From NCBI GenBank assembly GCA_026398875.1, contig JAPLSB010000019.1, positions 62,001-126,000 on the forward strand: a DNA stretch of 64,000 nt. Direction: 5' to 3'. Below the pieces are notes generated by a model. It was not told the DNA's origin, did not search any database, and saw nothing but the letters and a program-made list of their open reading frames with translations. The translations under genes were made by a program, and so were the position numbers. This document shows, piece by piece, positions 37,821 to 40,736 of this stretch. The DNA is from Gammaproteobacteria bacterium. GTDB lineage: Bacteria; Pseudomonadota; Gammaproteobacteria; Nevskiales; Nevskiaceae. The first letter of the stretch is position 1. Every line of letters starts with the position of its first letter.

Positions 37821-38528
37821 CTAGCGCCGGCTGTCGCGCAATGCCTGCTGTTCGAGTCGGGTTAGCGCCACCCGATTGCGCAAATAAGCTGGAACCAGCA
37901 GCGCGGCGTCAGTCACCTGCCCGGTGGCGAAGCGACCGGCTGCAATCTGCAAGGCCGCCGCCGCATGCGGAAATCGGTCGGCAGAGATCGATTCCGGTGC
38001 CACCGGCACGGCCACGAGCAGCGCACCGCCATGAACGTCCCAGCCGCTGCCGGTCGCGGCAAACGGGCCGTTCGGCGGCACCGTGATCGCCGCCGCCGGG
38101 CCGACCGCATCGTCCTGCACTGCCATGGCGACGCCATCAACGCGCCGATAGGCGCCGAAATAGACCTCGTCCATGCGCGCGTCGATCGCCGCCAGCGCAG
38201 TGGCGTCCGGGTGTTCGGTCAATACCGCCTGAGCGAGCATCGCCAGCGACGACACGCCGACGACCGGAAGATCCAGCCCCAGCGCCAGGCCCTTCACATA
38301 GCTGACGCCGATGCGCACGCCGGCAAAGCTGCCTGGGCCGATCCCGCAGACCAGTCCATCGAGCTGTTGCAATGAAAGCCCAGCGTCCGCGAGCAGCGCC
38401 GGCACCAGCAGCGGCAGCTTCGCGGCATGCTCGCGGATCACCACCGAGTAGCGTTCGATGATCTCGCCATCGAGCCATAGCGCCGCCGAAAGCGCTTCGG
38501 TCGCCGTGTCGATTGCCAGCAGCTTCAT
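37821..38528 (-). CDS. tsaB: tRNA threonylcarbamoyladenosine biosynthesis protein TsaB
   Basis: A 235-residue ASKHA-fold protein that partners TsaD in making t6A37 on ANN-reading tRNAs. Start MKLLAIDTATEALSAALW; GIGPGSFAGVRIGVSYVKGLA and AAIDARMDEVYFGAY are family landmarks. The correct start is ATG 38528, because the family begins there, but the frame stays open upstream through two 149-bp repeat units. These units each start with a copy of the first 11 codons of this gene. Its ATG overlaps the stop of the second repeat ORF (ATGA at 38525-38528). Confidence 0.93.
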   Translation of the reverse strand: MKLLAIDTATEALSAALWLDGEIIERYSVVIREHAAKLPLLVPALLADAGLSLQQLDGLVCGIGPGSFAGVRIGVSYVKGLALGLDLPVVGVSSLAMLAQAVLTEHPDATALAAIDARMDEVYFGAYRRVDGVAMAVQDDAVGPAAAITVPPNGPFAATGSGWDVHGGALLVAVPVAPESISADRFPHAAAALQIAAGRFATGQVTDAALLVPAYLRNRVALTRLEQQALRDSRR

Positions 38529-38677
38529 CGGCCTGTCCCCGTTCTGCTTTTGCCAGCGTCGCTTCCGAAGCGCTGAACCCACTCGCCTTGGCGGCGATCC
38601 CGCGAACAGCACGCGGGACCCTCGCCGCAGGGCTCGCGTGTTCCCTCGGTCGCTGTATCGATTGCCAGCAGCTTCAT
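38525..38677 (-). CDS. Repeat-encoded 50-residue ORF B ahead of tsaB
   Basis: A 50-residue ORF whose first 11 residues are identical to TsaB (MKLLAIDTATE) and whose other 39 residues are Cys/Arg/Gly-rich with no family I recognise. It starts inside the stop of ORF A and ends inside the start of tsaB, both as ATGA. Length equals that of ORF A exactly. No separate ribosome-binding site was sought beyond coupling. It may be a translated leader or a by-product of the duplication. Confidence 0.45.
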   Translation of the reverse strand: MKLLAIDTATEGTREPCGEGPACCSRDRRQGEWVQRFGSDAGKSRTGTGR

Positions 38678-38826
38678 TGGCCGATCCCCGCCCTGCTTCT
38701 GCCAGCTTCGCTTCCGAAGCGCTGAACCCGCTCGCCTGGGCGGCGATCCCGCGAGCAACAAGCGGGACCCTCGCCGCTGGGCTCGCGTGTTCCCTCGGTC
38801 GCCGTATCAATCGCCAGTAATTTCAT
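38529..38826. repeat. Two tandem 149-bp units bearing copies of the tsaB 5' end
   Basis: Starts at 38826 and 38677 (minus strand) are 149 bp apart, and the true tsaB start at 38528 is 149 bp further. Each unit is 33 bp of tsaB 5' end plus a 116-bp element. The element carries a hairpin: CGGCGA plus TCCCGC pairing with GCGGGA and TCGCCG across a three-base bulge, at 38741-38776 in unit A and 38592-38627 in unit B. There are no indels between units. Confidence 0.9.
38674..38826 (-). CDS. Repeat-encoded 50-residue ORF A after yoaA
   Basis: The first of two copies. It begins MKLLAIDTATE and then follows the same Cys/Arg-rich sequence as ORF B, with 39-residue tails that differ at eight positions. 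Its ATG overlaps the TGA of the yoaA gene (38823-38826) exactly where tsaB would be expected to start in the ancestral operon. Confidence 0.45.
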   Translation of the reverse strand: MKLLAIDTATEGTREPSGEGPACCSRDRRPGERVQRFGSEAGRSRAGIGQ

Positions 38827-40736
38827 GCCGTTGTCTGCGATTCCTCGCGCAGCCAGGCACAGGCCTCGGCCGGGTCCTTCAACGCCGGGATCGGCGGCAG
38901 GCTGGCCACCACCTTGCGGCCGTAGCCCTTGCTGCGCAGCCGAGGATCGCAGAGCACGACCATGCCGCGATCGGTCCGGTCCCGGATCAGGCGGCCGACG
39001 CCTTGCCGAAGTGCGGTGATCGCCCGCGGCAGCTGCAGTTCGACGAAAGGGTTGCCGCCACGGTCACGAATCAGTTTCAGCCGCGCCTCGAACACCGGAT
39101 CGCCCGGCTGGTTGAACGGCAGCTTGTCGATTGCCACCAGCCGCAACGCGGCGCCCTTGACGTCGACACCTTCCCAGAAGCTGGCAGTGGCAACCAGCAC
39201 GCCATTTCCGGAGCTGGCGAACTGCTCGATCAGCGTGCTCTTGCCGGCCTCGCCCTGGACGAACAGCGGAAACGGCAACGCGGCGCGCAGGCGCTCGGCG
39301 ATCCGGTCCATCGCGCGGTAGCTGGTACACAGTACGAAGGCACCACCGCCACTGGCTTCGATCAGCGGCACGAGGGCATCGGCCACGGCGTCGGCGTAAC
39401 CGGGGTCATTCGGATCCGGCAGGCCGCGCGGCACATGCAAGCGTGCCTGTTCGGCGTAATCGAACGGGCTGTCGAGACGCAAGGTCACGGCATCGTCCAG
39501 ACCCAGCGTCGCGGTGAAATGGCGGAAGTCTTCGCCGGCCGCGAGCGTCGCCGACGTGAACACCCAGGCACCCGGATACGCGGCCATGAACCGCTTGAAA
39601 CCTTCGATCGGCTCGACCGGTGCCGCGTGCAGCGCCCCGCCCCGGCCAGCGCTTTCGGCCCAGCGCACCAAGCCCTGTTCGGCATCGCCAGCAATGCGAT
39701 CGAGCGCGCCGGCCATGGTCGTGGCACGCCCGGAGCAGTGCGCAAGGCCGGTCGAGCGCTCGGCGACCGCCAGCAGCGTGTCGCGGCATTCGTCGAGCGC
39801 CGTGCGCGCGGCCGACAGCGCCGAAGCAACACCGGTGCGCTGCGCGAAGTCATCCAGCCCCATTCGCCCGCTGCCGACCTCGTTGAACGGTCGCTCCAGT
39901 TCGATGGTGGCCAGCGCCAGCTGATCGAGCGCTTCGGTCAGCCGCGGCATGTCGCGGAAGGCCTGCACTTCAACCGCGATGTCTCGGGCCAGGTCCGACA
40001 GCTGCCGCGTCGATACCTTTTCGCCGAAGAACTGCGTCGCCAGCTCCGGCAGCTGGTGCGCCTCGTCGACGATGATCGCGTCGGCGCCCGGCAGCACGCC
40101 GAAGCCCTCTTCCTTGAGGCGAAAATCGGCAAACAACAGGTGGTGGTTGACCACCACCAGATCGGCCGCCTGTGCCGCTCGCCGCGCCTTGACCACGTGG
40201 CACTCGGCAAAGTCCGGACACTTGCCACCGAGGCAGTTGTCGGCGGTCGAGGTCACCAGCGGCAGCAACTGATCGTCCGCGACAGTCGGCGGCAATTCCG
40301 ATACTTCGCCGGACTCGGTGCGGATCGCCCAGTCATCGACAAAGCTCAGCTTGGTCCGCGATACCCGCGCACGCGGGTCCATCACCGCCTTGCGCAGGCG
40401 ATAGATGCATAGATAGTTCGCGCGGCCCTTCAACAGACTGATCCGCACCGGCAGGCCGAGCGCATCACGCACCCGGGGCAGATCGCGGAAGAACAGCTGG
40501 TCCTGCAGGTTCTTGGTGCCGGTCGACACCACGACGCGCCGCCCCGACGCCAATGCCGGCACCAGATAGGCGTAGGTCTTGCCGGTGCCGGTGCCGGCCT
40601 CGACGACCAGTCGCCCGCGGCTGGCAATCGCCGTCTCGACGGCTTCAGCCATCGTCTGCTGCTGGCTGCGCGCCGAAAAGCCGGGAACCGCGCGTGCGAA
40701 CGGACCCTCGGGGCCGAGTAATTCGGCAGCGTTCAC
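38823..40736 (-). CDS. DinG/YoaA-family ATP-dependent DNA helicase
   Basis: A 637-residue superfamily 2 5'-3' helicase of the XPD-like group with an iron-sulfur cluster. Walker A is in VEAGTGTGKTYAYLVPAL; DEAH in IIVDEAHQLPEL; four Cys of the cluster are in ANYLCIYRL and DNCLGGKCPDFAECHV; motif VI is in QGVGRLIRDRTDRG. Length fits YoaA more than DinG. Overlaps lpoP at 40733-40736 and the first repeat ORF at 38823-38826, both ATGA. Confidence 0.92.
   Translation of the reverse strand: MNAAELLGPEGPFARAVPGFSARSQQQTMAEAVETAIASRGRLVVEAGTGTGKTYAYLVPALASGRRVVVSTGTKNLQDQLFFRDLPRVRDALGLPVRISLLKGRANYLCIYRLRKAVMDPRARVSRTKLSFVDDWAIRTESGEVSELPPTVADDQLLPLVTSTADNCLGGKCPDFAECHVVKARRAAQAADLVVVNHHLLFADFRLKEEGFGVLPGADAIIVDEAHQLPELATQFFGEKVSTRQLSDLARDIAVEVQAFRDMPRLTEALDQLALATIELERPFNEVGSGRMGLDDFAQRTGVASALSAARTALDECRDTLLAVAERSTGLAHCSGRATTMAGALDRIAGDAEQGLVRWAESAGRGGALHAAPVEPIEGFKRFMAAYPGAWVFTSATLAAGEDFRHFTATLGLDDAVTLRLDSPFDYAEQARLHVPRGLPDPNDPGYADAVADALVPLIEASGGGAFVLCTSYRAMDRIAERLRAALPFPLFVQGEAGKSTLIEQFASSGNGVLVATASFWEGVDVKGAALRLVAIDKLPFNQPGDPVFEARLKLIRDRGGNPFVELQLPRAITALRQGVGRLIRDRTDRGMVVLCDPRLRSKGYGRKVVASLPPIPALKDPAEACAWLREESQTTA

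Follow-up and report, generated by a model that had tools for sequence, protein, structure and literature searches.

The question raised by this locus is how two genes joined by a stop-start overlap can remain joined when repeats whose length is not a multiple of three stand between them. The locus is the junction of yoaA and tsaB in a 64,000-nucleotide stretch of DNA (the window) from a gammaproteobacterium of the Nevskiaceae (GenBank assembly GCA_026398875.1, contig JAPLSB010000019.1, positions 62,001 to 126,000; this genome is G000 in the comparisons below, with window position 1 at C21:62001). It is very probable that a short, non-autonomous insertion unit of the Nevskiaceae, bearing a hairpin, is present in the window as a tandem pair at the 5' end of tsaB, and that insertion at an NTGA overlap of stop and start codons was tolerated by way of a coupled mini open reading frame (mini-ORF).

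The repeats between yoaA and tsaB

On the minus strand, ATG codons at 38826, 38677 and 38528 are spaced 149 bp apart, and each is the first codon of a sequence encoding MKLLAIDTATE. The features of the junction are as follows, R1 being the covariance model of the hairpin treated in the next section.

38823..40736, minus strand: yoaA (DNA repair helicase; ORF; NCBIfam repair_DEAH_YoaA, 796.5 bits, cut-off 680), in ATGA overlap with ORF A
38793..38826, minus strand: first copy of the tsaB start (displaced copy T'), from the sequence, with synonymous-only differences from the tsaB start
38723..38791, minus strand: hairpin 1, 69 nt, full-length R1 match (G000:C21:100723-100791, E 3.9e-16)
38678..38722, minus strand: spacer 1, from the hairpin to the next start, without GGAGG (from the sequence)
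38674..38826, minus strand: ORF A, 50 codons, from the yoaA ATGA to the ORF B ATGA (ORF list)
38644..38677, minus strand: second copy of the tsaB start (T2; from the sequence)
38574..38642, minus strand: hairpin 2, 69 nt, R1 match (G000:C21:100574-100642, E 2.9e-17)
38529..38573, minus strand: spacer 2, without GGAGG (from the sequence)
38525..38677, minus strand: ORF B, 50 codons, stopping on the tsaB start in an ATGA (ORF list)
37821..38528, minus strand: tsaB, 235 aa, intact (NCBIfam T6A_YeaZ / TsaB, 174.2 bits, cut-off 69.3)

The 3' end of yoaA reads ...ACGGCATGA (...ACGGC ATGA), and the ATG of that ATGA, at 38826, opens ORF A. The end of ORF A (...CCAATGA) overlaps the start of ORF B at 38677, and that of ORF B (...CCGATGA) overlaps the start of tsaB at 38528; ATGA overlaps link the four frames into a chain that repeats every 149 bp. 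The original prediction, made from the letters of the window, had described the spacing, the shared residues, the two 50-residue ORFs and the chain, and had stressed that a length of 149 bp restores the coupling each time without being a multiple of three. All of this was confirmed in the sequence, both ORFs stopping on the next ATG. On the repeated MKLLAIDTATE it has to be amended: these codons are a duplicated gene start beside the hairpin and not part of the hairpin. The first copy differs from the tsaB start by six synonymous and no non-synonymous changes over 10 codons. The near-identical copies that might have been expected elsewhere in the genome were not found: with the 115-bp stretch as DNA query, just the two window copies were recovered from the 4.15-Mb genome, which otherwise holds structural hairpin relatives only. 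There are three of these, at argG, at a ferredoxin-reductase-like gene and, as a weak model match (E 0.0008), at a GMC-oxidoreductase-like gene.

The same junction was compared in relatives, as had been proposed. It is occupied in three genomes, by two units in G000 and by one each in G022 and G027, all coupled; an artefact of a single assembly is therefore unlikely. The unit measures 149 bp in G000 and 152 bp in the other two, always 2 mod 3, and in G022 and G027 an upstream frame of at least 204 codons stops in the NTGA of the first tsaB-start copy. Among the 25 readable unoccupied tsaB loci, 17 have an NTGA stop-start overlap after at least 100 open codons and eight do not; G047 is doubtful among the 17, its upstream context being like that of G050, whose long frame stops further up. 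(The motif used left 22 of 50 tsaB loci unread, and the tsaB genes of four further genomes were not included.) An arrangement ancestral in all relatives, with no copies elsewhere, is thus not what the family presents. Both tsaB-start copies of G022 lie at equal distance (3 differences in 35 nt) from unoccupied G018, and for this reason the displaced copy is not claimed to be the native one at tsaB.

A covarying hairpin family in the Nevskiaceae

Searches of the 58 genomes of the family with the 149-bp unit gave partial matches at other genes, several of them in tandem. Folded alone, the 149-nt unit did no better than its shuffles (z -0.59), and the hairpin was accepted because of covariation across loci. 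In the consensus fold of 20 aligned hairpins, an outer helix is followed inwards by a GA/GA internal loop, a 3-bp helix, a 2/3 loop, a 7-bp helix with GGCGA/TCGCC, a GGGN/A loop and a variable apical stem. Paired cells make up 90.2% of this alignment, and covariation reached 0.376, compared with 0.147 in shuffled alignments and at most 0.071 with the partners slid; the search pattern partly fixes the inner helices of the alignment and leaves the outer helix unconstrained.

The strict pattern GCGAGGGNCCC-loop-GGGATCGCC gave 31 matches in 14 of the 58 genomes, and the reversed control pattern gave none. Model R1 (E at most 0.01) was matched in 34 of the 58, representing 9 of 12 genera, with 1-8 matches per occupied genome; several genomes contain tandem arrays of two to four units. 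A contig scan with a longer pattern returned nine stretches, seven of them from Nevskia, Nevskiaceae or Stagnimonas, one from an unclassified gammaproteobacterial metagenome-assembled genome (MAG) that matches a contig of G019, in the same family, and one from a Thiobacillus MAG. R1 was matched in none of 27 other genomes of the order (E 0.001) and, among 369 genomes of the class scanned coarsely (13 candidates scored per genome, E 0.0001), in that of the window only. Rfam 15 returned no family match, only weak matches under the gathering scores; the longer hairpin pattern occurred in none of the viral contigs, plasmids gave no match to the window stretch, and among the matches listed from the open-access literature there was no account of the hairpin family.

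For the survey of insertion places 73 loci were fetched, most R1 hits weaker than about 1e-4 being left out. These loci contain 106 model matches, of which 103 were used after exclusion of two weak ones in L150 and one on the opposite strand in L152.

Two observations concern the spread of the family. The Thiobacillus MAG copy (L061, 4041-4423) is a hairpin unit between gshA-like and gshB-like genes, and represents either misbinning or spread outside the family. L136 and L137 (G006:C1, 83963 and 287495), about 203 kb apart, have the same hairpin, scores and neighbouring frames, and are either a duplicated region or an assembly duplicate.

Coupling at NTGA overlaps

The motif NTGA[AG]C lies within the first 12 hairpin bases at 14 loci. 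At 13 of these that TGA closes an upstream frame of 80 codons or more, and in all 13 the mini-ORF opened by the same NTG crosses hairpin and spacer and stops exactly on the downstream start codon, with an NTGA overlap in 12 cases and TAATG in one. Measured from start to start, the length is 2 mod 3 at all 13 loci, despite variation in both the hairpin part (58-64 nt, counted from NTG) and the spacer (49-59 nt). When hairpins were joined to the spacers of other loci, exact overlap resulted in 75 of 156 combinations (0.48), so that 13 of 13 has p ~7e-5; with shuffled interiors the rate was 0.47 (p ~5e-5). The value becomes ~3e-4 with 11 junctions, since L098/L100 and L112/L120 are two junctions that each occur in two genomes. 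GGAGG is found in the last 24 nt before the start at nine of the 13 loci. Among the 11 five-prime loci with duplicated gene starts, six are exactly coupled, namely tsaB in G000 (both units), G022 and G027, fliQ, the GMC-like gene and, with TAATG, the ferredoxin reductase gene of G000.

Occupied and empty versions of the same junction could be paired at two further junctions. Between the ABC ATPase and permease genes, empty G051 shows a simple GTGA overlap with AAAGACTC after it, and G052 has a unit between ATGA and the same GTGAAAAGACTC; at nuoE-nuoF, empty G007 has a plain ATGA where G006 has a unit. These pairs show a unit inserted into a direct NTGA overlap.

A second type of unit, lacking the R1 pattern, also occurs at NTGA junctions, in L300 (G040, ABC ATPase-permease) and L287 (G015, nuoE-nuoF). 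Its mini-ORFs, MSGPARCLRVAPWMREAR... and VSAPTRCLRAAQWVREAR..., are 44% identical, and each stops on the next GTG start.

The following mechanism would account for the junction in the window. The family occurs at gene boundaries, often at the NTGA stop-start overlaps of operons. A unit at such an overlap has a hairpin part and a spacer of the lengths given above (58-64 and 49-59 nt), one open frame and a length of 2 mod 3, by which a mini-ORF runs from the upstream NTGA to the downstream start; insertion would be tolerated because the mini-ORF links the upstream stop to the downstream start. A ribosome ending yoaA could restart at the ATG, make a 50-residue peptide and stop at the next ATGA, and two such restart steps would carry it from yoaA to tsaB. 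The start of tsaB would have been duplicated as well because the insertion point lay about 34 nt inside the gene, and tandem growth, possibly through unequal exchange between gene-end copies, would then yield the two units.

The open frames, 37-50 codons per unit, and the recurrence of hairpin-encoded residues such as MSHPARDPRSGIAGKA might be taken to mean that ORF A and ORF B encode useful small peptides for which the repeat is kept. The frame past the hairpin loop varies among loci though the overlap is kept, and the residues recur because the hairpin DNA is conserved, so that this explanation appears highly improbable. At the 13 NTGA loci exact coupling is commoner than chance would give. 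In this respect the earlier suggestion of a duplication kept for its coupling was partly upheld, the count supporting either selection for coupling or survival of coupled insertions.

Gene ends, recombination and known elements

Direct repeats around the unit or array, sought within 250 bp on each side (a copy lying farther off scores as none), beat all 60 shuffles at 39 of the 73 loci; 36 were retained after exclusion of L133, L147 and L094 as weak or non-adjacent. In most of the 36 the repeat is the end of the gene to the right of the unit, and the left copy mostly stops at the hairpin edge. The argG 3' end accounts for 11 loci, the dcd 3' end for eight and the tsaB 5' end for three; single or paired cases include gpsA, pntB-like, ferredoxin-reductase-like, dgt, htpX, fliQ and prs genes. 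The NCBIfam cut-off was passed by argG, dcd, gpsA, dgt, htpX and fliQ and missed by pntB and the reductase, and prs, metF, mdh, fba and the remaining names were read from translations. At metF in G017 (L104) the duplicate gene end sits behind another insert and outside the reach of the test; this insert (L005, ~1577-1841) measures about 265 bp, has the inverted ends GGGTCTGTTGACATTACTTTG and separates the hairpin unit from the metF duplicate.

At eleven other loci a stop codon immediately precedes the hairpin (with one base between in L144): L085, L108, L114, L144 (mdh-like), L084 (fba-like), L106, L111 (guaA-like), L136, L137, L131 and L091, the last listed through its identity with L131. At the argG and dcd 3' ends the hairpins are antisense to the gene. 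The argG arrays have periods of 149, 150, 152, 153, 156/157 and 162 bp, which are not of one frame, and in-frame translation of the 3'-end copies was rejected on these grounds.

Another type of hairpin (CCCGCACCC or GCACCCAC..., ...CACCGTG or CGCCGTG) stands at the argG 3' end in G014 (L191), G026 (L175), G041 (L185) and G057 (L192), with the argG end copied behind it in whole or in part; argG may therefore be a hot spot on which more than one family of hairpins converges. Downstream of argG in unoccupied G017 (L156) and G022 (L158) there is an inverted repeat whose arms resemble TCTCACGCAGAGAACGC.

Copies placed right after a stop codon, as a terminator or REP element would be, and the hairpins with flank repeats at the 3' ends of argG (11 genomes, 5 genera) and dcd (8 genomes, 4 genera) would also fit units that do not move at all. 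The unit would then be an old structured element, such as an mRNA stabiliser or terminator, inherited vertically at Nevskiaceae gene ends and often lost, its arrays arising by ordinary repeat expansion. Occupancy is patchy among close relatives, however: argG is occupied in G018 and G025 and empty in G011, although the gene bodies are only 4-5% divergent. NTGA insertions facing empty sites and the differing length of the copied argG segment among genomes likewise speak against an immobile element, which we regard as unlikely.

How the gene-end copies diverged bears on a different route. When gene ends were compared with their displaced copies in 35 pairs, 142.5 of 450 synonymous and 54.5 of 1233 non-synonymous sites differed, giving a pN/pS (non-synonymous over synonymous differences per site) of 0.14 (bootstrap 0.10-0.20). 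The frame of each pair was set by protein motif, L029 giving no codons (hence 35 of 36 loci), and the local alignment is biased towards well-preserved copies but not by codon position. The controls were 0.23 for argG ends of 25 unoccupied genomes (228 pairs with pS 0.1-0.6) and 0.51 in a simulation of a copy evolving neutrally next to a constrained gene. As 0.14 lies below both, the displaced copies behaved as coding alleles.

At argG, where an empty relative is available, the gene bodies of G018 and G025 differ from that of G011 at 52 and 58 of 1143 nt. In the last 63 nt each is 10 nt from G011 while the two are 2 apart. The displaced copy of G018 has 5 differences to the G011 end and 11 to its own gene end, and the DNA beyond it is that of G011. 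In both genomes argG thus appears to carry a foreign end, joined to the displaced native one. The rule that the displaced copy is always native was nevertheless rejected: among 14 genomes with a copy after argG, the distal copy is closest to its own gene end in G006, G045, G047 and G032, and also in G057 and G014, which have the other hairpin type, with ties in G046, G033 and G031. Inner array copies at argG are mostly near-identical to the gene end. From these alignments we take recombination between lineages to be part of the history of the unit, by one route or another.

It is accordingly quite conceivable, though we lean somewhat the other way, that homologous recombination between strains is the main means of spread, short DNA with a gene end and hairpin joining two functional gene-end alleles and transposition being confined to rare founding events. 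The low pN/pS and the G011-like displaced copy and downstream DNA of argG are what it would produce. It does not explain the arrival of a unit at a new gene, it is at odds with the argG genomes whose distal copy is nearest their own end or tied, and units of the NTGA class have next to no homologous flanks on which recombination could act. The likeliest reading is that of a small mobile DNA, able to persist at gene ends by rebuilding stop, spacer and start in frame.

Several findings weigh against this conclusion. Exact overlap is frequent in the swap null because unit lengths are conserved, and the p-value is therefore moderate. At the fourteenth NTGA locus (L075) the upstream frame is only 3 codons long and no ORF is coupled, exact coupling is not established at five of the 11 five-prime loci (L116, L126, L134, L151 and L122, the last not resolved per unit), the mini-ORF of the Thiobacillus MAG copy stops 3 nt short of the next start, and the window's own spacers have no GGAGG. 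Many copies lie at gene 3' ends (argG, dcd, mdh-like), where coupling is irrelevant; the original prediction of a mobile unit targeting ATGA junctions holds insofar as relatives occur at many unrelated junctions and NTGA overlaps are empty in related genomes, and fails insofar as the family is not confined to such places. Finally, no transposase or other mover was found. Y1_Tnp matches occur in 42 of the 58 family genomes, and six hairpin-bearing genomes (G006, G024, G032, G040, G043 and G045) have no Y1 transposase at E 0.001; a Y1 transposase appears unlikely as the mover, showing no clear tracking with the hairpin.

More tentatively, the units may represent a new, minimal class of mobile DNA, in which a hairpin unit of about 110 bp enters gene termini and rebuilds both flanking ends (stop, spacer and start, or substitute terminal codons), leaving every gene undamaged. 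It would move by a form of recombination able to import gene-end alleles from other lineages, and would share hot spots such as the argG end with other hairpin families.

Some known systems resemble the unit in part. Prophages and islands can integrate into gene ends and supply a substitute end, as e14 does at icd in Escherichia coli (icd-icdC). The likeness would lie in the displaced gene-end copy beside the insert and the functional gene with another, largely synonymous end; a new end with a displaced native end is indicated for argG in G018 and G025 but not in G006, G045, G047 and G032. In contrast to e14, the unit is about 110-180 bp, too short for an integrase, and has its own end copy for each target gene. 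The attC sites of integrons, like the Nevskiaceae units, form imperfect hairpins interrupted by internal loops and can occur as arrays. No attC boxes were noticed in the unit (no search for an integrase link was made), and its targets are gene termini. Repetitive extragenic palindromic (REP) elements and REPINs are palindromic elements with RAYT (Y1) transposases (PMC2817692, PMC3116915), the usual number according to the abstract of PMC2817692 being over 100 copies per genome. The unit shares with them a short, hairpin-forming, non-autonomous and intergenic nature, but not the high copy number or a clear tracking with Y1.

Mycobacterial interspersed repetitive units (MIRUs) form tandem arrays. 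In the description given in PMC12548453, where the work is attributed to Supply et al. (1997), they are apparently mobile repeats that insert at start codons and have an ORF coupled at -4 nt. On that description MIRUs would be the closest known kind to the hairpin unit, by way of working at NTGA junctions. The Nevskiaceae unit likewise lies between co-directed genes with an ORF overlapping the upstream stop and downstream start (in the window and at all 13 coupled NTGA loci), and entered a former direct overlap (G051/G052, G007/G006; 17 of 25 for tsaB). The host is Nevskiaceae and not mycobacteria, and the likeness is one of description. The unit may also be set apart by its covarying hairpin of about 65 nt, by duplicated gene ends, as long as about 100 nt, that diverge mainly at synonymous sites, and by many copies at gene 3' ends, with argG and dcd as recurrent targets.

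MIRUs are, in the account cited, the known example of insertion at a stop-start overlap without uncoupling of the genes. A second family, which has a conserved hairpin and belongs to another bacterial group, suggests that small mobile DNA can in general land safely at NTGA overlaps. The defined structure, the many occupied and empty junctions and the recurrent target genes make the question of movement testable, and the family shows a way in which ORFs of 50 residues and duplicate gene starts, which an annotator would take for genes or for errors, can come about.
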